This document shows, one piece after another, positions 1,728 to 63,574 of a DNA stretch of 64,000 nt. The notes under the pieces were generated by a model that was given only the letters and a program-made list of their open reading frames with translations, was not told where the DNA came from and did not search any database. The stretch is from Styela clava (Eukaryota; Chordata; Ascidiacea; Stolidobranchia; Styelidae), in assembly GCF_964204865.1 (NCBI RefSeq), contig NC_135257.1:14344151-14408150 (forward strand), written 5' to 3'. Both the position numbers and the translations under genes were made by a program. Every line of letters starts with the position of its first letter. Position 1 is the first letter of the stretch.

Positions 1728-4700
1728 ATGGAAAAACGAACTTTTGCTGCTGCCGATTATGCGGTTTTTGGTTTAATGTTGGCATTATCTGCTGCTATCG
1801 GAATATTTTATGCAATTAAAGATAGAAGATCGAAAGATGGTACAGAAGGATATTTACTTGCAGGCAGGTAATGAAATAACCAAATCACAATATACGGGGA
1901 ATATTCAAAATAGGATAGGATGGTTTCAGAGATAGTCGGTCATGTAATTCAGTGGTTTGCAACTTTTCTACACCGACGAACGGTAACATCTAATAAACCA
2001 TCCTCAAAAAATACGAAAAATTTTGAGATGAATTGATTAAACAAAAATATTAACCTGTATTTTCCGAATCAAAGCAATGTTTGTTGCAGCGACTCCACGT
2101 CTAATACGTCTAATCACACAAAAGAGTTGAAACAACAATTTTACGCAAGATGTTAAAATTATGCGCGGAAATATATAATTTTGTTACTTGTTGTAATTAT
2201 GGGTCAGAAAACAAAAGGTACGGGTTTTAATGGCTGAGAATGGTGCATATGCAGCAGCGCGCCCAACCCGTGAGTCCGACAAATCGAGGGATCGCATAAC
2301 ATTCTTTTGTGTAGTTATAGGGAACCTATATTTTACAACTCAATATATGCTAATTGGAGTACTAATCATAATGGGATTGGAGGCTTTAATCGGACTTCGG
2401 ACAAAACGGGGAATCGTCGGGAGTTTAGAGAAAGCAGTGGAACGTGCGCCCGGCATCTTGAGATCCGGAAAAACAACAAGGTCTCGTTTTCTGCCGAAAT
2501 TTGACAAATTCGATTAGACATAGTCATTGTACGAGATTATGATACGGCGCACGCCATTATGGAAAAAAGCTAGAATGCGAATTTAATTGTGTATACTACT
2601 AAAATATGACAGGTTTCTACATTAGCAATTATTCTGAAGGAAATCGAAGCATGAGAGTAAAATTATAGGCTAATTAAATATGAAAGTAATGACAAGCATA
2701 AAAACATTAAGATATTCTTATTTTTAAAAGTCAATTTTTACTTATTTGGTATATGTCAAACGCAATACACATTATTTAGCAATTTTCTATAATTACTTAT
2801 CATTATGAATTATATCAGTGGTTCTCAATTTATTCATGTCATACCCTCGAGCTACAAAACATTCAGCCCAAATTGCTTTCTCTTTTAGCTGAAACCAAAT
2901 TATGTGATAGTTTATATTTTACAACTCAATATATGCTAATTTGAGTAGTAAATATAATGGAATTAGAGACTTTGATCGGACTTCGTACTAAATGGGGAAT
3001 CGGCAGAAGTTTTGACAAAGCAGTGGAACGTGCCCTAGCCATCTCTGAGATCCGGAATAACCGCCCTATCCGCACTATGGAAATACGATAGAATGATTAT
3101 GTATTTCGAAAAAAAAATTAAAATAATTTTGAATTTAATTGTGTATATATATTACCACATCGTGTTATTGAATATTAGTAGAATAATAAAATATGACTGG
3201 TTTCTACATTAACAATTATTCTGAAGGAAAATATGATAGTAAAATCATAGGCTAATTAAATATGAATGTAATGGCAAACATAAAAACATTGGGATATTCC
3301 TATTTCTAAAGGTCAATATGTTTACTCTTTTACTATATGTCAAAATGTCAAATGAAGGTGATGACAAACATAAAAACATTGCGATATTCTTATTTCTAAA
3401 GATCAATGTTTACTCTTTTACTATATATATGTCAAATGCAGCAATACACGTTTTGTAGTATGTTCTGTAATTTCTTATCATCAATCATATCAGTAATTCC
3501 CAATTTATTCATGTAGCCTAAGTCACCCTCGAGCTAAAAAACGTTCGACCAGAATTTCCTTCCCTTTAGCTGACACCAAATGAAACGATAGCCTAATACA
3601 TGACGAAACAGTTTTAGGGGGAACCGCGAGTGTTTGTTCGTGCTGGTTGAAAAACATTTTACTAGCTACCAAACGCGCATTTAGATCGGACATACCTACG
3701 TCTTCCAGCCATGCCTTCGCATTTGTAGTATTGAATTCACTATCGTCAAGAACAAGAGGCCACGATGCGGATCTTTTGTACAAAGTCTCACCGCTCAAAA
3801 AAAAATAGTAAATATCCAATTATGGTTAGGGCGGGGGCTAGGAATTCGTATTGCGCTGGATATTCATATTCTTAATCCATTCCGAACCCGTACCCCAACT
3901 GGATAATTACTATTTTGTTATTCTAAACCGTGACGGGGGTGTTTTCCTCAAATCACACATTTTTGCATTAGTGGCGGGGGATATCTCATGAGGCCTATTA
4001 AATTTACTCGGCGTACCTTTCTATTTCATTCTAATGTTATATATACCACTTTTTGTTTTTTCATTTTTATTTTTTCTGCTTATTTCAGATCGATGAGCAT
4101 TTGGCCAGTTGCTGCTTCGCTTACCGTGAGTTTTATGTCTGCAATTACAGTGCTTGGTACTCCAGCTGAAATGTATTGGTTCGGAACAATGTTTTGGTGG
4201 TAAGTTTATTTATTTTTATTCTTGTTCAGAGGCTTGAATCAAAGATCCTAAGTATGGGATATAACTTAATTGAGCCCACAAATATCAATGTATTACCCAC
4301 AAATAATTTGTGTTATGTGCCAACAGACAGAAAAAATCTTTACGTAAAAAATTTTCCAAGAGCTTTGATTGTGAAAAATTCACTGGAGCTGTTTCCCTGA
4401 TTGTTTGACTTTTGAACTGCTCGGAGTCGTGTGTCAATCGGGATTTGCTATTGCAAAAAGTGCCCTTCAGAAAATCGATACAGTGTCAGTAAGTCATGAC
4501 ATTTAGATGATCGTTCATTACTTTGATTAAAAATGCGCCTTTTTTACTTCTAAGTGAGTGCGCGGGACCTTTCTTTGAGCTAATTCTCTTTCAGAAGATT
4601 TTATCTTAGTACAACACTTTATCATATCTCATAATTATTATTTTGTAGGCTGCTCCTTGTTTTTATCATTGTTGCCATCGTTGTTTCACAAGTATATATT

Positions 4701-7700
4701 CCATTATTTTATACTCTTGGGATAACAAGTACATACGAAGTAAGTTTTTTCTTTGCTTTCCTAATATTAGTCATAAAATGAAATAAACTAAAAATGAAGA
4801 GACCAAAAATAATCTTTCATTATAGATAGGATGTAGCTTTAATATTACAAACATTCTATTACTAGAATTTAATTTTCTTATTTAAAGACAAACAAAATTT
4901 TTAATTTTTTTTAAATTTAGTATTTGGAAATGAGATTCAACAGGCCAGTTCGCATTCTGGGGACATTTTGCTATCTTATTCAAAATGTTTTATACATGGG
5001 AATTGTTATATACGGACCAGCACTGGCGCTTAATGAAGGTATGTCTTAAGAATATGCATTAATTAGTTGGAGTTTAATATCTAGAGTGGAGATAGTTCGA
5101 TGCCTTACTGTACAATAGATAAAAGTTTGCCGGGCAAGATTGTCAGAAGCTGAAATCATTTTTATCATTTAACATGGAATAATTTAAATAGAAAAATAAA
5201 AAACAAACCATATTTACTCCAATGTTAAGATATTTATAATAAGTTCAATGCAATTTTAGATTAAGAATAGGACTGGAAAATCCCGCAGACAAAAATTTGT
5301 TGTTAAGATATAAAGTCTGCAGACGCATTTCAAATCCTTAACTGCTAGATTTAAATTAATAATTGTCCTTATTAATTGTAATTATTTTTGCCTCTAATAT
5401 TTTCTAATTAGCTTTCTCATGTAATGCATCACATACAGAAATCTAATTTAAAGACAACTTTTTGCAGTTACCGGATTTGATCTATGGATGGCGGTATTTA
5501 CGACAGGACTTGTTTGCACCTTCTACACGACTTTGGTAAATAACGTACAATTTTTAAAATAAGTAGCAATTAGGCTTTTCATAATATACTACTTCCATGA
5601 CAACATGACAAAGCTTTAGAATTTAATTTGAATTATAGGGAGGCCTAAAAGCAGTTTTATGGACGGATGTATTTCAAGGTATCGTGATGTGTGCTGGATT
5701 TATTGCTGTTATTATAAAAGGAAGTGAATTGGAAGGTGGATTCGGTAATGTCTGGAGAAAATGTGAAGAAGGTGGAAGAATTGACTTTCTACGGTATGCA
5801 TTTTAAAATGTGCTCTTTCGGTGACATATTTTGCCGATCAGTAACCTAATGTAATAAGTAGAAAAGGAGGATTTCGAAACTATCTGCTTTTTGAATTGGG
5901 TATGTTTGCAGCAAAGATGTGAAACATCACATAGGTGTTTTCGTTTTAGCAACATTTATCTAAATTATTTCAGTTTCGACACAGACCTGCGCATCCGACA
6001 TTCATTTTGGAGCATGGTGCTCGGTGGCGCCGTCTTGTGGGTCAGTGTGTATGGTGTTAATCAATCTCAAGTTCAACGTTATTTATGCTGCAAATCTGTT
6101 AAACGAGCATCCCAGTGAGTATATAGATATAAGATATAGGAATCAAATTTGGCACCGAAGATCAAAATTTACTTAGGTATTCTGATATATATTATATATA
6201 TATAATATTTATAGTAAAGTATTCATTAATTTCTTTCCATGGGATAGGCTACTTTGTCTTTACGTTTTGCAATACCGTTTTATTCTATTCTAGAGCACTA
6301 TATCTTAACGTTGCTGGACTATATATTGTCGTCAGCCTCGCTTGTATGACTGGACTCGTAATATATGCTCGATATTCAGCATGTGATCCAATAAATCAAG
6401 GGTGTGTTGATAAAAAAGATCAGGTAGGCTATATGGCTATATTTTTGGTGTGTAATTATAAATATGACACTTGATTTTTCTATATAATAGTCATTTGCCG
6501 TGACCAACCGCTTCTGAACGATTTCTCAAGCCTGAGTTTAGAAGACCGTGTGAAACAAGGCACAGCGGACATTGGTTCAAACATACAGACGCCCAAATAG
6601 CAGAGAATATTGCTGTTGAATAACTTATCTTAGGCCTTCAATTAAAATTTAACTTTGTAAATTAAACAGTCGAGCTCAATAAATGCTGATTTCAAAGAAA
6701 TTAAATGCTATTATGTTTTATAAAATTCTACGATCTATCAAACTTGCCATTTTTTTGTTTCAGCTTTTCCCATATCTTGTTATGGATATTCTTCATGATT
6801 ATCCAGGCGTTCCGGGATTATTTGTTGCTTGTGTATTTTCTGGAAGCTTGAGGTGAGTGTGATGTAAAGAGAATTGCTCATTGATTGTGTTTTGAATTTA
6901 CGATAATTCATGCAAGTATGTATGTTAAAAAGAGAAAGGTTGGAGGACCTTATCAGAAGAGAAGTACTCGCTAAATTTTATATTGATCGGTTTCATGTAA
7001 TCATACCAATCACCCCAAAATACTGTGAGGTCATATTTAACAAGATTTTGATCAAAGAACGTGTTACATTACAGATAAGAATATTGGAATAGACTAAATG
7101 TGGACTTAACGCGAGACTATATATAAGACCATTCCTATCTATATGTTGTAGTTTTGGGTATTTGACCTCAAATAAGATTTCACACAGATGATGCATTTAA
7201 GGCTAAACTATTATTTTTTTTAGCACCGTATCGTCGGGAATCAATGCAATGGCAACTGTAACAATAGAAGATTTAATCAAACCTTTCGCAAAGTGGAGTG
7301 AGAGAACATACATGTGGGTTACAAAAGGTAATTCGAACACTAGACATTAGAAAGTCGCTCTGTCACATTGAAATATATAAATTAGATAAGTTAATGGAAA
7401 ATTGATGCATAACCTGAAAAAACTGCTTACCCATTTTTGAGATAAAACTTACTGTATAAATAATATCATATCATGTGAAAAAGATTGATATCTCATATTT
7501 TCATCAATACTATATATATTATAATCAAAAAGATGATAAAAGACACTTGTAAATAGTAATAGGATAATGACATGCCGCAAGCTTGATAAAATTTCGAAAA
7601 CTTCCTTCTCTTTAAAATTTAGTATTTGTCATAAACAAGTAACACTCAAATAACATTCAAGCATTTCATTTAAAATACAGGATTAGTCATTCTTTTCGGC

Positions 7701-9979
7701 TTGTGCAGTATCGGTGTAGCAGTACTGGCATCCTATCTTGGAGGAATCTTACAAGCTGCATACAGTATCTTGGGTATGATCGGTGGCCCTTTGATTGGAT
7801 TATTCACGCTTGGAGTTTACATTCCATTCTGCAATTCAATTGTAAGTATAGGACATTTAAAAGCATAGATATCTGGTAATACATATGTGAAGATTTATTC
7901 AAAGTGCATGTTTTTAATATTAGAGATATTTCAACTATATAGCAAATGAGAACGAAAGACGCATTATATTTAAAGGTTACGATGTGTACTGGGGTCTGGT
8001 GTAGTTTACTACCACATGTCCTAGTTTGCTTGGCTCAGATATGCATGGATCGTTATGCTACGCCCCCTAGACGTACTTGTGGTACTAAACTACACTGAAC
8101 CCGTGTACTAGCTAGGCCACAGCTTAGCAACCAAAACTGTGAGTGAAACGAAAGAAAGTTTCTGTGTTTCTCTTCTCTCGGGATCATGCTCAATCAATCA
8201 CGTTTACAAAATACTAATTGATAATTGGCATTTTTCGAATTTGAATACTTTTCGCAATTTCAGTACAGCACATCACGTATATAACATCTATGAGCAAAGA
8301 TAGCTTGCAAGAGTTCATCACAAATTGAAATCAGCGTCTTACTTTACTATTGGCTGTAAATCATCTGTGAAAATGACCACAAATTTTTTTTACTACAGGG
8401 TGCATTCACAGGCCTTGTTGGAGGGGTAGTAATGACAACATGGATGTATATTGGAAGTCAATCTTATAAAGCAGGGCCAGAGTTCACAAGAGAATTGCCA
8501 CGAAATACTACCAATTGCCCTGCATATTGCAACACAATCATTGGATCGGAGAATAGTATAAATGCAACAACAATGCGGATGGAAGTATCAACAGCCACAA
8601 ATTATATCTATAACACAACCGCTTTTGACAACACTGAGGTCGAAGAACCGGCGATTGCGGAATTCTACAAAATTTCTTATCATTACGTAACATGTATTGG
8701 AATGGCGTGTACAGTGATTCTCGGAATGATTGTTGGACTCATGTCTTGTAAGTTATCGTACCATTGCATTTGGACTTGCTGCTAATAGGTCTATATGTAG
8801 TGGGGACGGAAAGAGTTGATTCAATTTTTAATTTATATATATACCTGAAATTGAAGAACAACAAAATAAATAGTATCTATCTAGTGACATACTATAGATT
8901 AAAATAAACTGCTTCTGCTGTATAATCTGTGATCATGTCACTATTTTTCATCTACTTTGTGCCTGAAAGAATCATGTAGCTTTCCTTTTGTCTTTCGTTC
9001 TCGACGTTTTTCCAAGGTGCCTCAAAGGCGGCAAAAATAGTCGATTACGTTGTCTCCTGCATATGAATTCATGACACTCATTACTAATACATAAAGCCTT
9101 ATACTAAAGGTATCATAGCCCTTTCAAAAGCAAATTCATGATATAGATTGTGTTTAAGTTTGTAGAGTATGATGCACAAATTTTGGTCAAAAATCGCAAT
9201 AAACTATTTCTATTTAAGGTGGTTGGCGCCAACGAGTAACCGTTGATCCAAATCTGATGGCTCCATTTTTTGATCACAAGATGTTCTGTTGGATACCTGA
9301 AAAAGTTCGATACTATTTAAGGTTCTGTGTTAAAGGTAAAGTTCCACCAAAACCCGAGCAAGAACTTTATGATATATCACGTGGAGTTTACACAGAGGTA
9401 ATTCGTACATTTTTGTGTGGTAAATCTAGATTTGAATATTTTGAAGAGAAATGATTACGCGCTTAATCAAAAAATTAAATCGCAAATTTTCGCTTTTCTG
9501 ACAAGGATAGAATATGAATTATATCGTTGTTGGGGTCAAACAAAAAAATACCCATTGGTATTTTTATGAATGTATATATTGTTCGAAATAATCTTATTGT
9601 ATTGTTTTTGAAAACAAATTGCAAAAGCAGGAGTGGCAATATTATCAAAATATATATTTATTATATTGAAACTGATCTGACCTCCAGAAAGCTTCTCTAT
9701 CATAATGACTAAATGGTCATGATTATGAAAATATTTATTAGCATATTCGAATGAGTTGAAATCATTGAGACCAAGTAACGAGTCACTATTATTGAACAAA
9801 GAAAATTTTTTTTTCTAAAGTCAGCCCTATTGAATATTTTTCATAAATACAAAATAGCACTATACAATAATTTCAAAATATAATATTTACCCCCTTATTT
9901 ATTTGTTCAGAATTCACTGGCGAATGTCACCGCTTCACCCAACGGCGGATACGAAAACCAAATTCGTATGGACGAATGA
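1728..9979 (+). CDS. Gene A: SLC5A8/12-like Na+-coupled monocarboxylate transporter (14 exons, 634 aa)
   Basis: Exons: 1728-1867, 4089-4199, 4649-4739, 4921-5038, 5468-5535, 5639-5793, 5974-6114, 6294-6423, 6764-6852, 7224-7327, 7681-7841, 8399-8747, 9219-9397, 9911-9979. All introns are GT-AG and the frame is unbroken. TM1 is about residues 10-30, followed by a basic DRRSK loop and TM2 ([14 protein letters not shown]). The symporter signature [21 protein letters not shown] is near 169-189, NQSQVQRYL at 257-265, and the SSF serine motif [11 protein letters not shown] at 348-358, in the helix that carries the Na2 site in this family. The last extracellular loop (about 458-525) has sequons at N472, N491 and N508 and paired cysteines. 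The expected role is Na+/monocarboxylate symport at the plasma membrane. Exon 13 ends in a GAG|gtaatt donor and exon 14 adds a 22-residue tail ending RMDE; without that splice the frame stops at 9454. The start lies in an ATGG context and matches gene B. Family assignment is firm; substrate is inferred. Confidence 0.93.
2327..3590. repeat. Tandem duplication of about 586 bp in intron 1 of gene A, with hAT-like ends
   Basis: Sequence from 2327 recurs from 2913 in the same order: the TATATTTTACAACTCAATAT block, the CGGACTTCG block, the CTACATTA.CAATTATTCTGAAGG block, a GACAAACATAAAAACATT block and a CAGTGGTTCTCAA block (2816; variant at 3491). Within the second copy the AACATAAAAACATT segment is itself duplicated (about 3271 and 3358). 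CAGTGGTTCTCAA is a typical terminus of hAT MITEs, so this may be a tandem or nested insertion. Confidence 0.7.
7984..8109. repeat. Inverted repeat (MITE-like hairpin) in intron 11 of gene A
   Basis: An arm of about 44 bp beginning GTGTACTGGGGTCTGGTGTA is followed, after a spacer of about 40 bp, by its imperfect reverse complement ending ACTGAACCCGTGTAC. There is no ORF. It is probably a short foldback or MITE; no second copy was noticed in the window. Confidence 0.65.
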
Positions 9980-18459: not shown

Positions 18460-21400
18460 ATGGAAAAGCGAACCTTCAGCAATGCAGATTATGGAGTTTT
18501 TGGTGTAATGTTGGCATTATCTGCTGCTATCGGAATATTTTATGCGATTAAAGATAGAAGATCTGAGGCTGGTACGGAAGGATATTCCCTAGGAAGCAGG
18601 TATGGACATTTTTTAGATGCTTGAGTAATTCCATGTCTGTTACAATGATTTGCATTCCAGATCAATGGGAATCGGACCAGTAGCTGCGTCACTCACTGTT
18701 AGCTTTACTTCTGCTATCACAGTACTTGGCACTCCAGCTGAAATATATTGGCACGGAACAATGTTTTGGTGGTGAGTGTGCTTTGTCTTGTGAAATTGAC
18801 TTCAATTATATTAAGTTTGTAACAAATAATGATTTATAGTTAAGTTATAAGTATTCTTTCCCTAAAGAGATTATTGGGATGTAAAGCTCGTTTGAGCTAT
18901 CGTAAAGACATGGTGTAATTTCTTCTCAATTTATGTCCCCGAGTAGGAATTAATTGTTGAGCCAAATCAGTTACGTTTCTCTAACTAAAAGAAGCAAATA
19001 GTTCATACTGATCCCTTAATACCCCCGCCGTTTTCTTGGGTCATCAAGCACAGACGGACGAAGGGTGTTAACAACGACAATAACTGCTTAATACATACAT
19101 ATTGGGAAGGTTTGGTTAATGGCGAAAAGATGAAATCAACGCATTCCTTTATAATGCGTATAGGTAGAAATCTATAATAGCATTTATTTAAATTATGCGT
19201 TTGACAAATATTACTAGCTTTAATACTGTACTTGGTTTATTAGCATGCTTATGAAATCATTATATAAAATAATAAGTATAAAAACACCAATACCATTGGT
19301 GTGGCGACGGTACGCCATGTGTAGCAGTGCCATTTCATGAATAAGTATTATCGCCAAGTCTGTAAAATCTTCAAAAAATTCCGTGTGATGCAAAGCCCCG
19401 TCCCAGCAGAAATTCATGGATTAAAACAGATATAATATAGAACAACCGAAACGCCACCACCTGGGCGATAGTCCGACAAGAATAATTAGGACATGCTAAA
19501 ACGGGGTCACGTGAATCAAGGTGCTCGGAGTCAAGTATGTATAAAACTGTTCTTTATAAAATACCTCAGGATCGCCGCTGTCTTCATCATTGTTGCAGGT
19601 GTCGTATCTGAAGTTTACATTCCTCTGTTTTACTCGCTGGGTATCACAAGCACGTACGAGGTAAATAATATACTATTACTAAGTTATTATTGTATGCGAC
19701 CTGAATGTTATTCTTTATCTGTTTATCACATAAGCTAATACACATACCTGCCCAACTCGGCTCAGGACATCAGACACGCAGACGAACCTCATAACATATC
19801 AAAACAAGCGCTTTCGGCATTCTACCAATTCAGATAATTTTTGTCTTGATACCTGAACCGCAACATGAACTCAACTCCAAACAATACCAGTGACAGCAAA
19901 CACAGAATAAAATGCTGTCAATAAATCAATTTTATTCTATCAACTGGATATGATGTTATTCGAAATTAATTTCGACATTGATTTATTTGGCAGATTCGAC
20001 TTTATATCACACAAGGCATCAAAAATTCAACATAAAATTGCTCACAAAATGTTTCATTTTTAGTATCTAGAACTGAGATTCAACAGATCAGTTCGAATAT
20101 TGGGAACAGTTTCATATCTTATCCAGAGTGTATTGTACATCGGAATAGTGATTTATGGACCAGCACTTGCTTTGAACGAAGGTATGCCAGATTTTTTTTC
20201 AAATAACACACGAAAGAAGATTATGCTGTGTTAAAATGCCAATTCATTCAATCAAATTTTACTTACAAAGCACACATGGCTATCAATTATGATTGAACCT
20301 ATTGAAAACATGAATTATGCGCTCATCTTTCATTAATCATACGCAGGAACATGACCATCCCTAGGAGCTAAAATGATATTTTTCGTATGCTGAATATGCT
20401 TGTTGATGAGTAAGCTAAGAGTTGGGCCAAAATTTAAAAAAAGGGTACAGTAAACGCATTTTGAAGTGTTTACTTTTGATGCTATTCAATCGGTATTAGT
20501 TGTTAACGTCACTCAAGTGGTTAGGTACAAATAAATCTAATTCTCTTTGTTTTGATATTTCAGTGACAGGATTTGATCTATGGATGGCAGTATTTACAAC
20601 CGGTCTTGTATGCACTTTCTACACAACTTTAGTAAGTATAGTATAATGCGTGTCATTTCTTCAGCCTTACTTTATCTATAAAATTAACTTTACTAACCTT
20701 TGGGCTAACATAATCTTAACAGAAGTTTAAAATATAATGATGTTTAGTTTTCATAATGTATCTGTGCTTTAATAATAAAAAATTTACATTTTAATTCATT
20801 AGGGAGGACTAAAAGCAGTTTTATGGACCGATGTATTTCAAAGTGTAGTCATGAGTGCTGGATTTATTGCTGTTATTATAAAAGGGAGTGAACTGGAAGA
20901 TGGATTCGGCAATGTCTGGAGAAAATGTGAAGAAGGAGGAAGAATTGATTTTCTACGGTAAGTTCAAAGGTCATGTACGTCGTAAACTTTTTATTTTAGA
21001 AAATATACTATTATTACTAACCTATTATGGTTTATTCTCAGACAGTCCCCCCTTCCCACAAACCGTTTTTTATTCCAACTAACCATAGTTGTAAAATTGT
21101 TCAATATACATGCTACATATTATAAGTGCAATATTTTTCAACATTTAAAAGGCATTTTGGCATTGTTGGCTGCAACATAATAATAAGTAGGATAGGCCAT
21201 TCGCGGACATGCATTCCTCTATAAATTTTTGAATTAACGTTAGCAATATGTCAAAATAGAATCATTATGTTATCAACATGCGACCGTACAATGCGGTTTC
21301 ACTCAGGGTTCTATCATCGGGCTAATAATGTTCATATTATTTGTGATCTTCCACTGAATTGCTGGTAACACTCGTTACTGATGGTACCGGATTGTTCTTA

Positions 21401-46676: not shown

Positions 46677-49600
46677 ATGGCTGGAAGAGAGCCTGCAAGT
46701 CTCAAGGCTGCAGACTACGCCGTGTTTATTATTATGTTGATGGTTTCTGCCGGTATTGGTATTTTCTTTGCATACAGAGATAGGAAGTCAAAGGCTGGAG
46801 TCCAGGGATACTTAATGGGCGGAAGGTGCGTTTTTAGTTATATTTAATCCTCTATTATTCTTAATGGTAATCAGACCATCAAGTTGACCAATCATGTGAA
46901 ACATATCGTGCCTGCATTTTACATGGTTGTGCTTTCTCTATGGTTCCAGTAAGACTTGTGCATAACTGATACCATGTTAACTATAACGAGGGTACCCCCT
47001 AGAGTACCCAACTGAAGAATCTTCAACCCAAGTTAGACCGACTGTAGTATCTCCAGCCAAAGTCAGACCGACTGTAGAATCTCCACCCCAACTAAGACCA
47101 TCTAACCCTAACCTTACCAAATATTTAGTCCAGGTCAAATGAAGGATCAACTGGTATTCACCAGGTCAAATGAAGGATCAACTGGTATTATCGGCTTAGG
47201 TGGGTTAATGGAATATTCTTCAGTTGGGAAACGAGATCAACTGAAGAATTTTCACCCCAACTAAGACCAACTGAGGAATCTCCTCCCCAGGCTGGTCTGA
47301 GGGGAGGGGGGGGGGGGATTCTTCAGTTGATCCGACTCCTCTCATCTCTCGTCACTGCACTGAAATTACTCATCATTAAAGTTTATTTGTCGTTGCCAGT
47401 TGAGCAACTATGCGTGAGGCGGCTTCGTTGTATGAATAATCGTTTGTTCTTGTGGCGTTTCAGCGTCGTTTTTACGCGATAATAACTTTCATTTAGAAAG
47501 TCAATCCGACTTCAAGACTTTTTAGGCAAATAAATCTAAGGCCAAAAACCATTCAAAAAATAAAGTGTAAATATACATTTTTGCAGCAATTTCAATTGCG
47601 TTTCTAATACATATTGACAATCAATATCCGTGTACAGAAAAACCTCATGTTACAGATTCCTCACTATAAACATGAGGTTCGAATCTTCTGAAAAGTATCG
47701 TAAAAACGTAATCGTAAAGTTTTGAAAATCTTAAGACAACTGTTTGTTATGGAAGTGGTTTGATACTATTACTAACGCTATATTTTTTTAGAAACATGAG
47801 TTACATCCCTGTATCGATATCGCTTAGTTTGAGCTTCGTATCTGCTGTAACTATCCTTGGAATTCCAGCAGAAATGTATATATTTGGTTCAATGTATTGT
47901 TGGTAAGTTTGTGTAAAATTCATGATAGTTCTACTGCTTTCGCATATATCAGATTTTCTGACAGACAAAAGTTTGAATAGTAGCCAAGAAAAAGTTGGCA
48001 AATTTGTTTTGTGATAAAAGTCAGATTTGTATAAAACAACAAAGAACAACAAACAGCATCAAAATTGATTCCCAGTTTTTATTGTTTTGGCATAATTTTC
48101 AATATTTAAAAAAACAATATACGACGTATTTTTTCATACCAATTCGTAATGTTCAACATTAGAAAAGACAATAAAAAGAATATTAGAGTAAACCTTTCAA
48201 ATTACTCGGTATGCAAAAGTTTGTCAAAAATTATAATTTCCCAAAAATTACAATTGGTATACAAATTAAAAAAAATCCTGGTCTTTTATTTATAAAATTA
48301 TTTCATATTCATCTTTTATTTTTATTACAGGTTATTATTCGGATGCGTAATGATATGTGTGCTTCCTGTGACGGAAATCTTCATTCCAATTTTTTATCGA
48401 CTTGGAATCACCAGCAGTTTTGAGGTGATAAAGGAAATCTATTAAATTCACTGTATTTTCATGCTTTCTATTTTTTTTTTTAGAAACCCAGACACATTCT
48501 TTGTTTGAATATGCTTGGATAGGTGATTTATTAAATTATTTGCAATAGACATCTTGAATATCTCAATTTTAATTTTCTACACGGTTGACCACTTTTTATT
48601 AAGGATATTGTGCAGATATTTTCTATGCCCTGTTACTTTTTGTATAGAAAAATAATTTTGCGCCTTCCGTGATTTTTCGCTTTATTCAGATATAATGTTG
48701 GTTGAAACCTCGACCTAACTTTCGATATACATCTTATTTTATCGACTGACTGCTGTTTTTCAGTATCTTCAACTTCGTTACAATTATGCCGTTCGTCTTC
48801 TTGCCACTGCGGCATATATATTTCAAAATATCATGTATATCGGGATCATGATATTTGCCCCAGCGCTTGCTTTAAATTCAGGTATTTCGTTAATATTTGT
48901 GATAGGCCTTACATCTAGGCAGAGTTTTCATTCCGTCCTGTTTTTAAATATTTATCTCTATTTGTTAGCTACATTTCTATTCTGTGTGATAACACACAGT
49001 TTTAATGTTGAAATTTGCACAGAAGACGGTGGGTTAGATTGGATTGTGCTACAGTTTTTATAGGTTTCATCGGGGTTGTCGTAAATGTTTGTTCATTTTT
49101 TGTACCTATACTTGGTAGTGTGGTGTTCCGTCGCAACGATCACCTGAAAATGGTTCATTTTTTGGCCTTTATCTTGCTTGTCTAATGTAGCCTGCACGGT
49201 AATAGCCACTTTTATTTGGAATAAATCCAGAACTACGGCGGCGGTCTTACCACTCCTGATGTAAATCCCCAGGATCGTGTTATTAATATATAAAAGATAA
49301 AACTTAATTTGTCTGTAACTGTGCTGTTGCTCCATATATTGTGTGATGATTACAGGCCATTTTTCTAAACTAATTAATTAACAAATGTATATTATCATTT
49401 TTAGTGACGAGTTTAAACCTTTGGGCATCAATATTCTCTATAGGACTTGTCTGCACTTTTTACACCACATTGGTAAGTCCAGCTTTATATCATTCGCAGC
49501 AACTTCGTTATTCTGATTTTACTGTTCATGGCCAGCTGGATATATACCCTTTGGGGAAAAACTGGACTTTTTCTTATTACACAATTTCTGCGTCAAAATG

Positions 49601-50215
49601 GGAAAGTCGAACCGGAATGTGCGAGTAGCCCCGTACGCCTAAGTGGTTGTTTCTTAGGATTAAGTCCCCTCTTGAAACAAATGTAGAATTCTCACAGTGT
49701 AACATTGATACCAAAAGTTGACCTTTGAAGTTTTAATTAGTCACTGCAATATAATTTTCAGAAAATAAATGAACGATAATTAAAATGCATGTTAAAAATG
49801 AAATTTAAATTTCACGATTCAGGGTGGACTGAAAGCTGTTATATGGACTGACGTATTCCAAGGCTTCATCGTTCTTCTTGGAACAGCAGCAACTCTATTT
49901 GCAAGCGCATCAAAAGCAGGAGGTTGGGATCGAGTTTGGAAAGTGAATTATGAGAGCGGACGAATCGATTTTGGAAGGTTAGTTAGTACCAATGCATGTA
50001 TTTTTCAATCTTCATTGCATTCAAATCAAGAAGATTATTTATAACGATTATCCGCGATGAGAAAAATAACGTCTTCGTGGAATGGACTAGTAAATTTATC
50101 AATTAAAATTAGGGAAGATATTATATGATCCATAAATGTCCATCTTTCGATTGCCATTTCGTAAAAATACTTGCTAACGTAAATGTTATTTAGATAATTC
50201 AAACAATTACTCACT

Positions 50216-50276
<61 letters not shown>

Positions 50277-53200
50277 GATGGTCTAATGTTAAAAGAACAA
50301 TAAAGCGGTTACTTTACAATGTCATAGGAAATGAGCTAATGTATGGTCACCAAGTACAATGATCACATATATATAGATATATTTTTAAATAAATGATAAA
50401 CCTTGTTCTAGTGTTATTCATTATACTCAAATAAATTCATTTAGAGCCAAAATAATATACGATTGCATTTAACTGCCGTCACCAATCACAAATTATAGGG
50501 TCCATTGCGCCATACACGAATAAAATACAATCGGTCTAAATTTTAAGATTATGTTTTCAGGCAATTATTATACACATAATCAATGAACTGCATTATTATG
50601 TACACGATTTGTCTAAAACATGTAAGAACTACGTCTCAATTGAAAACTCTTTTTTCTTTGATGATGCTCGTCGTAACATAAGACAAAAACCTCGAAATAC
50701 TAAGTTTACTTGATAGTTAATACATATCATTTGTTCATGAATGTTATCGAGATACAACGTTTCATTTTTGTCGCTGCCAGTACTCAATATAAAAAAAATG
50801 AGATTTTCGGCCTAATCGATTAGAACCAGATATAAAAATAGGCTAGAACAAGAGTGGGCAACATGTGGCCCGCGGTCTGAATGTGAACCACAAGGAAAAA
50901 TTGTGTGGCCTGTGGAACAGTGACAATTTTGAATGGTGTGCCGCCCGCGAATCGAGTTTCAATTTAGTTTAATCTGGTACGTGCTAGTAATTCCAATTCC
51001 TTTGCGTCCCCGAGTCCAATTAATATCTAATATGCCAATGACGTTACAATATCTTTCTTTGTGCGTGCAACTACTAGAAAGCCTATGTTAAACAAAGATG
51101 CGGGTCGCGTTTCACCCAGTTATTTGTATCTGGCCCTCTTTTATTAAAGGTTGCACACCACTGGGAAAAGAAAATATAAATGTGTCTAGTCTAAACTAAA
51201 GTATGCATTAACAACTTGTTTGGTCCCATTTGAGAATAATTAGCGAGAATGACAAAAAATTTATTTGCATTTATTCCACACATCATAATATTCCACCTTG
51301 AACTTTATTATTCTATTTCATTTCTAGATTTGACTTTGATGTTCGAGTAAGACATTCATTTTGGAGTATTTCAATCGGCCTCGGATTCCTATGGATGAGT
51401 ATATTTGGTACAAGCCAATCTCAAGTTCAGAGATATTTGTGTTGTCGAACAGAAAAAGACGCTAAAAAGTAAGCACACGCGGGAAAGTGTTATAAAGAAC
51501 TACTGTCATTTCTTATTTCAAGTTTCTCGTACTAACTGATAAATATGAGGCCAAAGTTGTAATAGAAAGAGAACACATTGATCGATATAAACACAACAAT
51601 TGGTCTCTTTGCGTAAAAGACAAAATCTAATACTTTTTTGTTGGACATGATCTAACAAGCTTCGTGCCCAATCTACGGGGATCAGATTTATCGTGCCGTC
51701 GAGTCGAAGTATGAGTTTTGCTTGTTTTTATTTATATTGTTGTTGGAGTCATATTTTCAATCCTTCCAGAGTCGGAGCCGAAGTTGAAAATGTTGAAATC
51801 TTTGGTATAAGAAATATACACTTTTATGCCGATAATCTGAATTATAATTTTTGCCAAAAACTCAAAAAGTAACGTACTTTCTCAACAAACAACGAATGCT
51901 TGCCTATGCCAATTTTTTTCTTTTTATCAAAAATTGGATTCTCGGAGTTTGGCGTCGAAGTCAAAATTTCCATCAACCAGAAATTGAGAGTCGGAGTCGT
52001 TGTTGTTTCATAAACAACCCGCAGTTTTGTGTCCTAGTGTGGTTTAAATTTTCAATATGAGTGATGTGGCAGTAAAACTAACATGAAATGAATATGACAC
52101 ATTTTACGTAAATATTTTGCTATATATAAACCCTACAATTTTTTGTTTAAATAACGAGTTATATATATATGTTTATAACAGAGGTGTTGTAATCAGCATG
52201 GTCGTATCAGGTCTTATATTCTTACTGACAGTATTCACGGGATTCGTCATGTACGCATATTTTGCTGACTGCGATCCATTATTAAACAAAGAAGTGTCTG
52301 CTCCTGATCAGGTTTGATTTTGATTGATTGATTTTGATTACTGCAATTGTAGTTAATGAAGTTAAATTGAGAATAAATTGAGGTGTAAGATCATATTGTA
52401 GGTAAATATTTACATACGTAGAAAGGCCAAACAACGCCCCGCGTCGCGAAGTATGCAAGCGTATATTTTTCCAAGTACACCAATTACGTCGCGTACATCT
52501 ATTTTACATGTGGCTCTCCACATCTCTCCTAAAAAATAGGTTTTGGACAAAAAGCCACTGATACGTATAGGGGATGAATGGAAACTGTAAAACAGTTTTT
52601 TTAAATTCTCAAATCTTCAAAATTGTGAATACATAAGCAATATGTTTTAATTATGTTTAATTTAAAACCATTATATGTTGCAAGAAAAATAGCCTGACTG
52701 TATTATCTTAAAAATATTTTTATTGTATTTAAATTTTGAATTTCCAGCTGCTACCTTACATGGTATTAGACGTTTTCCGCGACCATCCCGGACTTCCTGG
52801 CCTATTTGTTGCGAGTGTATTTTCTGGATGTTTGAGGTAAAAAAAAAATTATAAACAGAATCATATCATTAAAATTAGGTATGAATTATTAAATAAGATC
52901 CATGGCCCGAGAAAATATATTTTTTTGCAATTTTGGTAGCATTTTTTGAGATTCTTTCAAAGTAAAGCAAAGATTGCCTATATACTCTAAAACTAGTTTA
53001 TCGTGTGGTGAAATCTGATAGAAAATGAAAGATCACGGCATATACAAGTTGAAATATTACTCCTAATCTGAACTTAAAATCTTGACTTTTAAAAGTGGAA
53101 ACGTTGGTATTTCAGATATACAAAAAAAAATGTTTTTGATGAAGCAGTTCGACATCGAAGTCGATTTAACTGGTTAATAACCATCAATTTTTCAGTCACA

Positions 53201-55973
53201 TTCACTCCTCCGTTATAGCCACGAATATTATCACCTTGAGCTGTTTTTTTATAAATGGCATATTTTTCAGCACGGTGTCATCTGGTATAAACGCAATGGC
53301 TTGCGTAACTGTAGAAGATTTTATTCGACCATTCGTCACGTGGGAAGAGAAAACTTTGACGTGGTTATCAAAAGGTTTGTAAAATTAGCATGCCAATGCA
53401 TGAACTGCTCTAAACTGGTGAAAATCAACTCAGTGAACATCGGTGAATTTTCTACCAATAGGGTAATATGTCTGTGTCTGGTTTTCGATAACTAGCATAA
53501 TAGTTAAACGACATTCGTCCTGAATGGATTTCGTTATATGGCATCAGATCTGAGCAAGCGATCACTTCGACGTACAAGGTTATTTGATATTCTGTTGTCG
53601 TAGCTCATAACAACTCACCAAGTTTAGGACGCCCTAACGGAGATTCGTGGACAGACAGGCTCTGAAATCGACATCACTCAAATCTGTCCATATTGTGTGT
53701 ATACGTTGCTATGTCGCTTTATATTACGCTTTTGGTATTGCCTTACTCTACATACCGTAGGGCGTAGGCTAAGTGATTCGTCGGTTCATGTTTTTATTTC
53801 CGAAAAATGCCAGCGTGTATTTATATGACACGGGTTGTTGTTTTTAGGTCTGGTGTTCATGTATGGCTTGCTTTGTATTGGATTTGCATGTTTATCCTCA
53901 TTACTTGGAGGAGTTCTTCAAGCTTCACTTAGTGCAATAGGAATCGTTGGAGGACCGCTGCTGGGAATATTTAGTCTTGGAATTGTATTTCCGTGTGGAA
54001 ATTCTATTGTAAGTTTATATGATTAGAACTGCTGGGTTGTGCTGTGCTAGTCGAGAAAGTACTCGAAATGAACCTGAAAAAATAGGAAATAATTTTCTAT
54101 GTCGCCCGTCGTGATAAATAATGCTAATATTATTAAAAAATGTTTTTTTTCACTCGATTTAACATGTCACATTGAGGGCGAAAGAGTCTTTAGTTAGAGC
54201 TTTATAATTTTTCTTGTCATTGTGATTCCTTCTAGTGGATATGATATTAATTCAATAACGATGTTCTCTGGAGTTCAAACACATTGTTTTCATTTATAAG
54301 TTATATCTAAATCATATGGCATATACTCTTAATGCTTTTACTTATGTTGATTACATTTCTATGACACACCCTACCTAACATACAGATTTAGCTGCCTTTA
54401 ACATATTTCTATTTTTAACAATCTATTCACTAAACGCGTTAGAACTATTTTTTTTAATTTTCACCAACAGGGTGTCACTGTAGGCATGATATCAGGAATG
54501 ATATTGACAACTTGGATATATATTGGAAGCCAAGCATATCCACCTCTACCTCAATTTACGAGACCCAAACCACGAGATATTTCAGGTTGTCCAGATCCAT
54601 CGTCAATCGTGTTTCCGATACCGCCAGATCCGGCTTCTCGTCCGAATATTGCAGATGATTTTTATTCAGTTTCATACGCATATTATACAGCTATAGGATA
54701 TGCGACCACTATCGGAGTTGGTTTGCTGGTCAGCTTATGCACACGTAAGAATTTATTCCTCAATATTTTCTGTTGTCTTTGCTGTGAATTCTTGGTTTAA
54801 AAACCTAAGCAACAGCATTTCGTGAAAAGATTTCGTCCCTGGCCACAGATTGTGTCAACCACTATAGATTTCATTAGAGTTGGGTAGAGCATAGAACAGC
54901 TGTAATTAAGGTTTGGCATCGGAGGAAAGATTTGAAACCAAAAAATTATATATATATCTCAAAATTCTAACTAGCGTTTCTCACTGAGCCCGAAAGTCGA
55001 GGTTCAGATGTACGAGGTTCTTATACTACGGCCTTGACCACACAGGACACTGTACTTAACCTATAAATCGACAGAATGACACGATGCTGTATAAGAATAT
55101 ATGACGGAAAACCTTGAATATTATTTTGAGGTGGATACCAAACACGGAAAGAAGTGAACCCAAGATTGATTAGGCCGTTACTTGATCATAGAATCTTCCG
55201 ATGGCTTCCTGAGAAGTTCAGAAGATTCATGTGGTGTGGCGTAGAACATGACAAAGTCAATGCGCATGAAGTAAGGAGACTACTGAATTGTTCAAATTTG
55301 TATCCAACACACTAATACTCGACGTCGGTAATCTCTGAAAGTAATTTAGGCAAATATGTTTGGTGAAATTTTACTCTTGAATATATACTTCATTTTTTGG
55401 CAAACAGGAGAAAGGGTATTTAGTTGATTTTGGGGCGCGAGTGGATTATTAAAAATTTGAACCTTTTTTAATCAAAAAACGCGCACATTGCCTAAGGTTT
55501 TTCAATGAGTTACCAATTTCGGCAAGTTGGAAAAACTAAAATCTTCTCCAAGTTTAAAAATTTATTTCATATTTTCCGATTTGTGAAATTTATACAATGT
55601 TCAGGTGATCAAAGTTCCAGAACAGCCGCCTGAATATTCACTGAAAAGGCGTTGGTCTAGTCGAGAGAGAACCAGCTCTCTTCGCCTGAGTAGACGACAT
55701 TGGAGAGAAGGAAACGCACAGAGAGTAGCGAGAGACTGGAGAATGAAACACGAAAAAAGAGTGGAAATGAGAGAGTTGATGAACAATCAGGAAGAAGAAT
55801 TGAACAATGACACAGTTCCCGCCAAGCTGGATTTACAAAATGAAACGAACGGTAACAGCAGAACTTCAGGGAAAAAAACATCATCTTTGCGACCGCAAAG
55901 AAAGTCATCAAAGTCCAAACAGCCCGAACGAGGGGATTCAGTGAAATCCGGAATACCGAGCGTGTGGATTTGA
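46677..55973 (+). CDS. Gene D: SLC5A8-like Na+-coupled transporter with long basic C-terminal tail (14 exons, 700 aa)
   Basis: Exons: 46677-46825, 47792-47902, 48331-48424, 48764-48881, 49405-49472, 49823-49977, 51328-51468, 52182-52311, 52748-52836, 53271-53374, 53848-54008, 54471-54744, 55131-55270, 55605-55973. Core motifs are [14 protein letters not shown] (TM2), [10 protein letters not shown] and [11 protein letters not shown] near 352-362. Exon 3 carries one extra codon. By eye, the segments [12 protein letters not shown] and [12 protein letters not shown] resemble vertebrate SLC5A8 more than the other copies do. The exon 12 loop is short, proline-rich and has no N-glycosylation sequon. 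Exon 14 encodes about 122 residues (579-700) with roughly 28 Lys/Arg, an acidic patch in the middle and a C-terminus PSVWI that could fit a class II PDZ ligand. This tail is far longer than in A-C. Exon 13 uses a TTTTGAG acceptor, weaker than the others but frame-consistent. Confidence 0.9.
47009..47331. repeat. 31-bp-type repeats and poly-G hairpin in intron 1 of gene D
   Basis: Degenerate units of about 30 bp of the type ACTGAAGAATCTCCACCCCA occur from 47009 to 47095. CCAGGTCAAATGAAGGATCA is repeated exactly at 47130 and 47161. GATCAACTGAAGAATT near 47227 is mirrored by ATTCTTCAGTTGATC at about 47320, enclosing a run of about 13 G preceded by GGGGA. The block could fold as a hairpin, and the G-run could form a quadruplex. 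Confidence 0.7.
50220..50275. repeat. (TA)n microsatellite in intron 6 of gene D
   Basis: An uninterrupted TA dinucleotide run of about 28 units. It is likely length-polymorphic. Confidence 0.95.
50849..51163 (-). mobile_element. hAT-like MITE in intron 6 of gene D, inverted relative of 25246-25527
   Basis: Read on the minus strand it starts CAGTGGTGTGCAACC and then follows the 25246 element: AAATAACTGGGTGAAAC, ATAGGCTTTCTAGTAGTTGC, later GCACGTACCA. The other end reads AAGAGTGGGCAACATGTGGC. Flanking 8-mers match poorly, so the insertion is old or the ends are mis-set. Confidence 0.7.
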
Positions 55974-56061
55974 CGTTTTTTCAAGATTGGAATCATAGTA
56001 CGATAATTTTTTACAAGAAGATTTAACGCTGCCTTAAAAAGAATTTCCGGTTGTTATAATT

Positions 56062-58737: not shown

Positions 58738-61700
58738 ATGACATCCAATTCAGAAGAAAAGGAGTTGTCAGTTATTGATTACGTAATATTTGCTGGGATG
58801 CTCGCAGTATCTGCATTGATTGGAGTTTTCTACGCGTATCGTGATAGAAAGTCAAAAAATGGGACAAGAGGATACCTGATGGCAAACAGGTAACTGCTTT
58901 TTATTATGGATGCACTCTATTTTATGGCATCGAATATAATAGGAGCGTGTCCAAACAATTATTTGTTTAACGGAACGACAAATGCACTCGCCGTAAAGTA
59001 ATGTGTCTACAAATGACTTTTGTGCATATCTCGGGACGCATTAAAATCACAAAAGTTGCATCTGAATTTAAAGGAAATTAGTTTCTGCTTTTTGTGCCCA
59101 TATTCCATTTGGAGGAATTTTATTTTGCACATTTGTTTTATTTTTTTATGGAGATTTTGTGTGATTCATAGAATACAAACAAATCATGTCGATCTATTTT
59201 TTCAGAAAGAATAATAGTTTGTTCAATTAGAACGCCTATTACCTTAACCAGCCTCGATTGACCAGCAACACGGGAGTCCAAGTCCCAACCCGCGAACCAA
59301 AACATTTGTTGCGGGCGAGAAATTTTTCTCATAAAAAAAAAATTCGCAAGCAAGACACAATTTTTTTTTTCAACCACAAACTAATATGTCTTTGCCAATG
59401 CGGTCCACTCGAAAACATCTAACCAACTATACATTGCACTCTCTGGGATTACAATATAATTAGAAAAAACACGTATTTTTGCATTAGTAGTGTAAAGACT
59501 AAGTTAGTTGTTAGTTTCTATCATTTGTTGGATTTTGTGTAAAACTAATTACTTTATAAATAACTTGATATGTGTGTGTAATATCTTTCTTGTTTTACTC
59601 AAGGTCGATGGGGGTTATTCCAGTTGCAGTTTCCCTGGGGGTGAGCTTTCAATCCGCAGTTACTGTTCTTGGAATTCCCGCCGATGTTTATCAATTCGGT
59701 ATGATGTATATATGGTGAGTTTGCTTTGTATTTCAAAAAATCAAATAAAAAGTTCAAAAACAGGTTTTTATTTGAAGATGAACATAATGTCACAGCAATT
59801 CTAAGATTGCATTAATTTAATAGAAAACTTTTTTCTGCTAAAAGATGTTCTGATTATATAAACTGTCACGTGTCAACATCAGCAGGACTACGTTGTTCAC
59901 ATTTTTACGTTTTTTCGTGGATTTTCATGTCTTATACCAAGGGGGGCCTGCTTTCGACTGATCGTTAGTAAGGTCATACACAAAACCGAATGAGCACTGA
60001 ATATGCAGATAACTGCACACACACACATACAAAAAAAAATTTCACCGCTGCCAATAAACTCGGCTGTGTGAGCGATCTCTTGATGAAATCGACACAAAAT
60101 TTGTATTTTTTATGTTCCATTTAAGTTGGTAATTTGAATATGTAATTGTAAACGAAGTAAAAAGTTTCATTTTATTTAAGATTTATTCAAATTCTTCAAT
60201 TCAGATATATGGCCTGCATAATTTTTGATCGTAAGTGTTGAAAATTTCTTAAATTAAAAATATCCAAGTATCCTTGTATTATCTAAATGTGAAAAATCAA
60301 TATTCTCAAACCATAAATGTTATATGTCTGCACAAACTTTAGTATCTAATTTACAATTTCATCCAAGCGCGAGTCTTCGCTCGTTTGGTATTAGAAAAAA
60401 ATGTGCATTCTGGTGCCATTGCGAATGGAATTTGTCATACTGCTCGCGGAGTGAGACAATAACAAGAAATTATTGTAGGCTAGTTGGTAAGTCATTTCAC
60501 GCGATATTCGGCAAGTTCATTATTAAACTTTGGCAGCGGCAAAACTTGCATTTGTTACGTAATAATAAGCTCCATCGGAGTTGCCCAAATAATGTATGTG
60601 TATATTGTATTTTGCGCATGTAGAGGACTGTATTCTTCCTATTTTAAAACACACAACACGCACTGCATGAAACTGATTGGAGGCAATTTTTTAGGGTATG
60701 TCATTAAATTCACCAAACATCCGGCGCGATCGACGTGTTGGCCGCCCCTGCATACGAAAGCAGTAATGAGATGCGGGAAGTATAGTAGCATAAGTCTGTA
60801 GATAACCAATGTGTTTTCATTTATTTGTTAAATTAAAACCGATTTACTACGTTTTAACGAAAACTGTATTTCTACTCAACGTTGAACAGGTCGGTGTTAA
60901 GTTTGATTCTGGTGACGATAATAGTGTCAACGACATTCATTCCTACTTTGTATAATCTTGGAATTTCAAGCACATATGAGGTAGTTGTATAAACCTGTTA
61001 TGAATTTGTGGATGCTTCTCAATTTATTTCAATCTATGGTTTTTTTTTTGTGTATATTTATTAGCAGCAGTAGTATTTTATTAAGTAATGCAATGGATTT
61101 TGCATTGCTGTCGATTGCATGGATCAAATTGGAAAGTATGTTGTTTGAAATAACTGAAATGTGTTGTTCCAAACATTGATGATGGATGCAGACAAGTAGG
61201 CCTATATTGAGGAAATCTACGTATTTTTCGTTGATTTTCTGTTGTGAAAACATTGTAAATAAACGAGATACACATCCCTAACAGCGGTTAAAACATGTCT
61301 AAGCTGTTGACATATACATGGTTTTGGCGGATTATCTTTCCCAGTTCCTATGTCTTAGTATTTAATATAACGCAATTAACTGTTTAGCGTATAGCTAAAT
61401 CCGATTACACACTATCAAATTTAATTTACAATCTATCATTATATATACAATATTTTAGTTTCATACTGCTACAGGCTCGCAAAACATAGTGGATATTGAA
61501 AGCAAATTATATATACTAATTTATTAATCCAACAGTACTTGGAGAAACGATACAGTAAAAGCATGCGACTCATTACAACAGGGATATTCTTATTGCAATA
61601 TTTTTTATACATCGGAATAAACATATATGGGCCATCGTTAGCACTCAGTGGAGGTAATATTTTACTAACATTTTATATCAGTACTTTATAACTTTGATTT

Positions 61701-63574
61701 TTTTGCAAATTTTAATCGTGATTTATTGTCAGATCTAATATGATATTATAAATAGTTAAATATATGTTTGCCATGAGAGCATGCTTCTCACAACAATACA
61801 CCCGTTTTCTGGCTTTTATAACTGAAATGTCCGCTACTCAGACTTCTGTCTTCCATAACTTGGATCGCATTGTGTCGAAATCCTAATGCTAGCACACAGA
61901 AAAAAAAATGGAGAAAAACGCTACAACTGTCGATTTTTTTTTTCTGTATTGTGATTCAGTACATTTTTCTTTTCAGTGACTGGGTTAAGTTTTCTATCGG
62001 CTATGTTGTCAACTGGATTAATCTGCACATTCTACACAACGCTGGTAAGTTTGATAAAGACGAAAGATGAAACCATGAGCGTTTGAAAAATGTGTGGGCT
62101 CACGAATTATGTAGGACTGGATGTTATGTCGTCACTATTCACTTTGTACTTAAATTTACTGGAAAATTTATATTAAAACTAATCTCTTAAGGCACCGAAC
62201 GTGATTTAGGATGAGATAGACAACTAAAAATAAGTCTAAATAAATATAGCTTTGCAAGTGTCGTATACTAGCTAGTTGGAATATTAAATTGAATAAGATT
62301 CGTCCATCTATATATTAACGGCGAATAAAGAATACTAACATGTAGTATATTTTTTTAAAAAGGGTGGATTAAAAGGAGTAATATGGACAGATGTATTTCA
62401 AGGTTTTGTTATGTTTATTGGAATGCTGACATTTATTATTCGAGGTTGCTTTGTCATGGGTGGAATTAGCGAAGTTTGGAAGATTGCTGAAGCTGGAGGA
62501 CGAACTGATATATTGAAGTAAGTCACAATCGCTGTCTAAAATTTCTCTTATCATGAGAGCGGTGTTTTAATTCAAAAAATAAGTAAAATTCAATTTCAAT
62601 CTATGATTACCAATATTGATATGACGTACCTGTATCGGAAATATCGGACGGAGAGATTGATCAGTTTCGAACATAAGATAACAATCACTACATCGAATCG
62701 AGATTGAATTTTAATGTTTCAAATTTGATGATGCTCACAACCAGAAGATTGGAAATGATGTGAATACGTGTTCTTAAATTCCATATATCATCGGAAATAT
62801 CAGAAATGAAACTATCGAAAGTTTGGTATCGGTAAAAAATATTGGTATTGAATTGATTCCATAACTGTATTACAAAAAAAAATTCAGTAAAATCCCAAAT
62901 CCACGGACTATTTTATGCTTGAAAACAGTTCACGGGTATTTTGAACAGTAATTTTTACCATATTTGTGATAACAAATATACCATATTTTTTAGTTATGTA
63001 ACAAATTGGATTTGACAAATTGGCCATTACAACGTATTTTTTAGTAAATTTAAACAATACAAAGTAAGAAAATAATCTTAATCGTGGTTTGGTTTTCTTT
63101 GCAAAATATTTGAAAAAAACGTAACACACGAACAGAGAAATTGTATCAAAAAGTAATCATGTTGTTGTTTTTCCTATTTTTAAAGGTTTGATGTAGATCC
63201 AAGAAAACGATATACAGTGTGGACAGTTGCTGTTGGTTCTATCATTCTTTGGATTGGAATTTTTGGAACAAATCAGACTCAAGTTCAAAGATATTTGAGT
63301 GTTAAATCGCAAAATAAAGCAAAAAAGTGAGAAAATAATATTTTCACATGAAATATAAAAATTGAATATACAAATGTCCCTATGTTATATACGTGTCGCA
63401 AATTCCCTTTTTACTGGTTATTACTGTGCAATTATGTTAAACAGATCCTTATATTTGGGAGCCACAATTATTGCAATGTTCTCTACCTTAGCTGTGTCTT
63501 GCGGACTTGTGAGCTATGCTTATTATCATCAATGCGATCCAATATCGGCAGGTTGCATCGATATAAGAGATGAG
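58738..63574 (+). CDS. Gene E: SLC5A8/12-like Na+-coupled transporter, 3' end beyond the window (exons 1-8)
   Basis: Exons seen: 58738-58889, 59604-59714, 60890-60980, 61536-61653, 61977-62044, 62363-62517, 63186-63326, 63445-63574. They encode 322 codons. Exons 2-8 equal the other paralogs in length and phase; exon 1 is 152 bp, giving a longer acidic N-terminus ([11 protein letters not shown]). TM1, the DRKSK loop, TM2 ([14 protein letters not shown]), [21 protein letters not shown] and [10 protein letters not shown] are all present. No exon 9 (the LxPYxxLDI block) is visible between 63575 and 64000, so the gene is cut by the window edge and is not a pseudogene on this evidence. NQT replaces NQS in the second symporter motif, and GTP is GIP in TM2. 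The start is the first ATG in frame, 32 bp after a tctcag acceptor-like site. Confidence 0.9.
59960..60153 (-). repeat. Dispersed repeat R2, inverted copy in intron 2 of gene E
   Basis: The reverse complement matches 14998-15200: AAATGGAACATAAAAAATAC, the GATTTCATCAAGAG block, TGTGTGCAGTTATCTGCATA and TTTTGTGTATGACCTTA. It shows that the R2 family inserts inside the gene cluster as well as between genes. Confidence 0.7.

Follow-up and report, generated by a model that had tools for sequence, protein, structure and literature searches.

Within the SLC5 family of symporters, the NIS clade has been defined in vertebrates as slc5a5, 6, 8 and 12 in the available text of PMC9309457, whose main text makes no mention of Ciona, tunicate, urochordate, amphioxus or Styela. 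In the razor clam Sinonovacula constricta, 16 SMCT genes have been credited to tandem and dispersed duplication (PMC11939762, in the excerpt available), and the Drosophila SLC5A paralogues rumpel, bumpel and kumpel have partly redundant roles, with rescue suggesting glucose or lactate transport (excerpt of PMC8790523). For ascidians, the expression profile of the Styela clava endostyle includes, as a potentially related transporter, a "sodium-coupled monocarboxylate transporter" whose role is described as controversial (accessible part of PMC9953650), and "SLC5A8" of Ciona robusta falls from a median of 522 to 7 transcripts per million (TPM) at high salinity (excerpt of PMC12592103). A literature search, chiefly of open-access work, returned no earlier description of a tunicate SLC5 expansion. 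Here we describe a row of SLC5A8/12-like genes in S. clava, analysed in a stretch of 64,000 nucleotides (nt) of contig NC_135257.1 (C9:14,344,151-14,408,150, forward strand), hereafter the window.

The window was found to be the middle of an array of eight such genes, c0-c7, which lie head to tail on the + strand over ~110 kb (C9:14,326,702-14,436,776). All eight are adjacent on one strand, paralogous and built on a common exon plan, as expected of a tandem array. The array is real and larger than first noted; the family being well known, it is a sizeable expansion and not a revolutionary one. The explanation we prefer, with a probability of roughly 0.7, is that it consists of NIS-clade Na+-coupled symporters, was grown by tandem duplication and is predicted to serve the uptake of small organic anions.

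Gene models and extent of the array

Self-comparison of stop-to-stop fragments yielded five + strand sets of ordered matching exons in the window. The exons of c1 were read by hand, and the other copies were searched for stop-free exons that were bounded by AG...GT and matched c1 in phase, whereby every exon of every copy was found, in order and with a high score. The lengths of exons 2 and 4-11 do not differ among the eight copies (111, 118, 68, 155, 141, 130, 89, 104 and 161 nt). Before correction of their tails, the eight models were open over 592-637 codons, the open frames and canonical splice sites of c0 and c2-c7 being partly a product of how the exon search was constructed. Pairwise protein identity among the copies is 37-79%, far beyond chance, and two close pairs are neighbours, c1/c2 (79%) and c5/c6 (78%).

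Six of the eight models agree at 99-100% with independent public S. clava proteins: c0 with P0002 (99.8% over 607 amino acids, aa), c1 with P0001 (99.5% over 612 aa), c4 with P0026 (100% over 579 aa), c5 with P0038 (identical over 624 aa), c6 with P0034 (99.2%) and c7 with P0121 (609/613). Each of these proteins matches a single copy, with no joining of exons between copies, as expected of separate genes. The tails of c1 and c4 were corrected with them: that of P0001 placed exon 14 of c1, superseding an unspliced exon 13 that ran to 9454, and the C-terminal tail of P0026 mapped to 55602-55970. The C-termini of the c0 and c7 models run into introns, and the last exon of c2 may be longer or spliced onward.

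The five + strand genes that the first-pass annotation had placed in the window were confirmed by spliced models, each on one 13-exon plan (Table 1), with c1-c4 complete and c5 cut by the right edge. The annotation's description as head-to-tail paralogues was correct, and its count of five was too low. In the flanks examined (40 kb to the left and 60 kb to the right), c0 was found on the left (-17.4 kb) and the remainder of c5 on the right, followed by two further copies, c6 and c7 (the latter ending at window coordinate 92,626), on the side where a search for more copies had been proposed; the rest of these flanks held no ninth copy. Coding-to-coding gaps between the genes measure 3.0-9.4 kb. 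The claim that no other gene lies between the copies held in the parts examined, with no Pfam match over the cut-off in 10 of the 52 intergenic or intronic open reading frames of at least 80 aa outside exons and no Rfam family at the gathering threshold in a search of the window; coverage was partial, and a small multi-exon gene may remain.

Table 1. Coordinates of the array genes in the window (position 1 is the first nucleotide of the window).
Gene	Span	Strand	Protein (aa)	Exons
c1	1728..9979	+	634	1728-1867, 4089-4199, 4649-4739, 4921-5038, 5468-5535, 5639-5793, 5974-6114, 6294-6423, 6764-6852, 7224-7327, 7681-7841, 8399-8747, 9219-9397, 9911-9979
c2	18460..24584	+	615	18460-18599, 18661-18771, 19570-19660, 20064-20181, 20564-20631, 20803-20957, 21792-21932, 22191-22320, 22421-22509, 22746-22849, 23346-23506, 23614-23968, 24400-24584
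c3	31794..43186	+	633	31794-31936, 32957-33067, 33964-34054, 34204-34321, 38182-38249, 38954-39108, 39384-39524, 39937-40066, 40524-40612, 41682-41785, 41943-42103, 42371-42764, 42990-43186
c4	46677..55973	+	700	46677-46825, 47792-47902, 48331-48424, 48764-48881, 49405-49472, 49823-49977, 51328-51468, 52182-52311, 52748-52836, 53271-53374, 53848-54008, 54471-54744, 55131 to ~55273, ~55602-55973
c5	58738..63574 in the window, on to 67178	+	624	exons 1-8 of 13 in the window: 58738-58889, 59604-59714, 60890-60980, 61536-61653, 61977-62044, 62363-62517, 63186-63326, 63445-63574

Several repeats accompany the genes. A direct repeat of ~0.8 kb stands on both sides of c1 (136-924 and 13058-13847), many of its fragments being 76-100% alike at the level of protein frames. 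A minisatellite with a 16-bp unit (16214-18076) stops ~0.4 kb upstream of the start codon of c2, and a 120-bp unit is present twice, at 99%, in 57820-58059, ~0.7 kb upstream of that of c5. Intron 4 of c3 holds a 2.6-kb inverted repeat (34529-37148) with eight arm pairs that are 83-98% complementary; its 886-bp right part has dispersed genome copies of 75-94% (61 match rows, with 40 of 1430 candidates scored), and the many dispersed copies make the repeat transposon-like.

Family membership, fold and sodium site

The Pfam family SSF (PF00474) was scored on the six public proteins and on the c2 and c3 models, and all eight passed the curated cut-off of 22.8 bits, with 113-143 bits (c2 130, c3 117) over the full model (1-406). 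Among solved structures, human SLC5A8 scored best against each of the four copies tested, c1, c3, c4 and c5 (573, 531, 532 and 451 bits, respectively), ahead of NIS (470, 422, 467 and 377 bits) and SMVT (452, 410, 445 and 372 bits); SGLT1 reached at most 78 bits, and choline transporters at most 36 bits or were unlisted. With 372-573 bits to SLC5A8, NIS and SMVT in these four, the array genes are, judged by sequence, SLC5 symporters of the NIS clade (SLC5A5, A6, A8, A12). The fold predicted for c5 (P0038), which is among the most diverged copies, had a mean predicted local distance difference test (pLDDT) score of 83 and matched SMCT1 best in the PDB (7sl9), with a TM-score of 0.93 by target length.

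At eight positions taken as the sodium site (NIS 66, 69, 144, 191, 194, 263, 353 and 354), 62 of the 64 cells are as in NIS or SLC5A8, the exceptions being F at 144 in c6 and S at 354 in c3, and mean pairwise identity is 0.94 vs a background of 0.55. Which of the tabulated positions bind Na+ is our assumption, as in part is their split into sodium and anion positions. The fold (predicted, for c5 only) and the sodium-site residues (in eight copies) agree in pointing to Na+-coupled transporters of the LeuT fold. The Q that NIS carries at position 72, presumably part of its anion site, is replaced by T in all eight array proteins, as in SLC5A8 and SLC5A12. Most of the tabulated positions are assigned to the pocket of a NIS model in the accessible part of PMC7034854.

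A function by homology is well supported for the array genes, and the "organic-anion uptake" of the first-pass annotation is a prediction of this kind. In each protein, the Na+ gradient would drive a small organic anion, such as lactate, a short-chain fatty acid or a similar monocarboxylate, into epithelial cells. Since the sodium machinery is kept and the substrate-site residues vary by copy, a difference between copies in substrate, affinity or tissue is probable.

Phylogeny of the array

The main tree comprised 56 rows, its weak points being a root that consists of one SMVT sequence and a long NIS branch. All tunicate rows and eight further rows form one clade (support 97/92), sister to vertebrate SLC5A8+SLC5A12 with NIS, and NIS branches with SLC5A8+SLC5A12 at 96/88 inside 98/96. 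At this support of 97/92, the tree gives no specific orthology to SLC5A8 or to SLC5A12, and it places the array genes as co-orthologues of vertebrate SLC5A8+SLC5A12(+NIS), neither SLC5A8 nor SLC5A12 proper. None of the five window genes fell into a different ancient SLC5 clade, in keeping with the first-pass annotation.

Within the tunicate-side clade, c1+c2 and c5+c6 were each recovered at 100/100, c3+c5+c6 at 99/97 and c0+c1+c2 at only 90/79. Copies c4 and c7 belong to a 100/100 group with S. clava P0015, P0123 and two further rows; P0015 lies at C9:12.158 Mb (98% in exons 6-7) and P0123 at C9:14.114 Mb (99%). None of the Ciona or Clavelina rows sampled falls inside the three sub-clades of the array.

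Clade hypotheses were compared with the approximately unbiased (AU) test. Monophyly of the eight array genes by themselves was rejected (p = 6.6e-7, with P0121, the public version of c7, removed from the run): c4 and c7 instead join genes at other sites on C9. The array together with the four relatives of c4 and c7 was not rejected as one clade (p = 0.42; p = 0.27 with P0029 and P0017 added), and the union of c0-c2 with the Ciona P0008/Clavelina P0009 group was rejected (p = 0.018); these three values are guides, the groups having been named after the tree was seen. Orthology of c0-c2 to the Ciona P0008 group was thereby rejected, and the idea that the array lineages are older than the Styela-Ciona split was dropped after the same test.

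Synonymous divergence (dS) and its ratio to non-synonymous divergence (dN/dS) were 1.08 and 0.13 for c1/c2 and 0.80 and 0.16 for c5/c6. Both pairs are under purifying selection, and they alone are moderately recent, all other pairs being near or past synonymous saturation.

Origin of the array and alternative explanations

Non-rejection at p = 0.42 and rejection at p = 0.018 make a Styela-side expansion the better reading, short of proof. The "lineage-specific expansion" of the first-pass annotation survives in this sense, with one tunicate-side clade and a favoured Styela-side origin, and fails as regards an exclusive clade of the array. In the ascidian ancestor, the wider family would already have had several members; the lineages of the array itself most likely diversified within a single chromosome on the Styela side. 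Growth by repeated unequal crossing-over of whole genes is the most likely route, because the genes share strand and intron positions and the close pairs are adjacent. From c0 to c7, the sub-clades follow the order A A A B C B B C, which suggests that a B-C pair may also have been duplicated as a block; the relatives elsewhere on C9 were probably moved out by later rearrangement.

Several observations weigh against this account. For c2 and c3, the 120 best matches listed per search included no public S. clava counterpart; as the search was confined to a limited candidate set and to proteins 0.55-1.75 times as long as the query, a merged or missing annotation of the two is possible. Identity at eleven putative anion-pocket positions is 0.50 vs the background of 0.55, with 30% of random draws as low, and a subset of eight positions is more variable (0.31, 1.3%) but was chosen after the table had been seen; hypervariability of the pocket, apparent in this post hoc subset only, was discarded as unsupported for the eleven-position set. 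The block-copy idea is weakened in that c4 and c7 do not pair exclusively with each other, and 9 of the 28 pairs gave no dS owing to saturation.

The alternative that retains most weight, although we consider it unlikely, is an old tandem cluster that predates the split of Styela from Ciona and Clavelina and was inherited. It would accommodate the saturated dS between most copies and the rejection of a single clade for the full set of S. clava rows (p = 1.5e-5), P0025/P0040 pairing with Ciona P0031 at 100/100, and in Clavelina, contigs of equal size carry three family proteins each, a hint of clusters there too. It is opposed by the absence of sampled Ciona and Clavelina rows from the three sub-clades and by both guide values, p = 0.018 for c0-c2 with the Ciona/Clavelina group and p = 0.42 for the array with its relatives.

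There is a rather small chance that some copies transport iodide, as NIS does, or vitamins, as SMVT does, and not monocarboxylates. The branching of NIS with SLC5A8+SLC5A12 leaves room for this, and a monocarboxylate transporter is reported from the S. clava endostyle transcriptome, but the available text of PMC9953650 does not specify which gene. The T at the Q72 position in all eight copies and the higher score of SLC5A8 than of NIS and SMVT in all four copies tested argue against such substrates. A recent burst within the array alone, from one progenitor and with no relatives elsewhere, is very improbable: the identities of the neighbours c1/c2 and c5/c6 and a weak branch (76/27) that keeps c0-c3, c5 and c6 on the same side are in its favour, but the array was rejected as one clade, c4 and c7 have their relatives at two other sites on C9, and saturation affects most dS values. 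That the copies are pseudogenes, or an assembly artefact of unmerged haplotypes, is hardly credible, although the lack of listed public counterparts of c2 and c3 might be cited for it, given closest copies at dS 0.8-1.1, far above alleles (window vs public alleles <1%), eight open models, dN/dS of 0.13-0.16 in the close pairs and six copies present in public S. clava protein sets.

Genome-wide repertoire

The genome (376.6 Mb, 379 contigs) was searched with a 99-residue query from exons 6-7, and the 108 candidates scored yielded 99 matches at E <=0.1. With matches within 2.4 kb merged and SLC5A6-like and SLC5A8-like sequences counted together, these correspond to 58 NIS-clade-type loci at 28 sites, a count of exon matches and not of whole genes; the weakest loci have best E-values of ~4e-4 to 6e-4. 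By a 60-kb rule, 42 of the 58 are grouped into 12 clusters of at least two loci, the largest being the array of the window (8) and the next a cluster on contig C6 (7). Twenty of the 49 loci outside the array and with introns were sampled: exons 6 and 7 were open in all 20, exon 7 was 141 nt in all 20 and exon 6 was 155 nt in 19, in a search that required AG-GT and restricted lengths. In a tree of exons 6-7 (77 rows, 99 columns; bootstrap not settled), one 99/99 group has seven members mapped to C9, namely c4, c7 and five other C9 loci.

Three further sites deserve mention. On contig C4 (10086454-10088094, - strand), locus L019 is an intronless SLC5A8-like frame that encodes 610 aa with 44% identity to c1; it sits on a long branch and is probably an old retrocopy with its open frame kept. 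The C6 cluster (C6:9989415-10079541) packs seven family loci into 90 kb, and the scores of several of its matches are equal in pairs, suggestive of recent segmental duplication. Four family loci on both strands occupy C9:14098354-14133082, ~0.2 Mb left of the array, and the two sampled group with c7.

A bolder proposition, to which we give little credence, is that the NIS clade of S. clava is a substrate-diversified repertoire from which one or more SMCT-like genes supply the endostyle with iodide or other anions in place of a true NIS. If this were so, 58 loci would stand against the four human types (SLC5A5, A6, A8, A12), with the sodium engine kept and the pocket varied. The eight-gene array and the dozens of further loci offer a natural set of variants for the residues that set substrate choice, and the array family is a route to asking how ascidian endostyles obtain iodide. 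The label "SLC5A8" in ascidian expression or salinity studies (e.g. PMC12592103, as excerpted) may mean any of many paralogues.

Comparison with known systems

The Drosophila genes rumpel, bumpel and kumpel are, like the array, invertebrate SLC5A paralogues, but they belong to an insect and were not among the rows of the tree. Sinonovacula constricta resembles S. clava in that the same family is enlarged in an invertebrate; its lineage is independent, and its 16 SMCT genes, as given in the available text, and the 58 broader NIS-clade loci from our exon search were counted differently. With the NIS clade, as delimited in the accessible part of PMC9309457, the array shares membership by sequence and by tree. 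The closest known systems are vertebrate SLC5A8 (SMCT1) and SLC5A12 (SMCT2), which have the sodium-site residues of the array and T at the position of NIS Q72; SLC5A8 is also the best-scoring solved relative, and the predicted fold of c5 matches that of SMCT1. The first-pass annotation had contrasted the array with separate single genes in vertebrates, a contrast qualified by an extra slc5a8-like gene of fish in the available text of PMC9309457. It otherwise stands: vertebrate SLC5A8 and SLC5A12 are dispersed single genes, whereas S. clava has eight tandem copies in a separate, tunicate-side clade.

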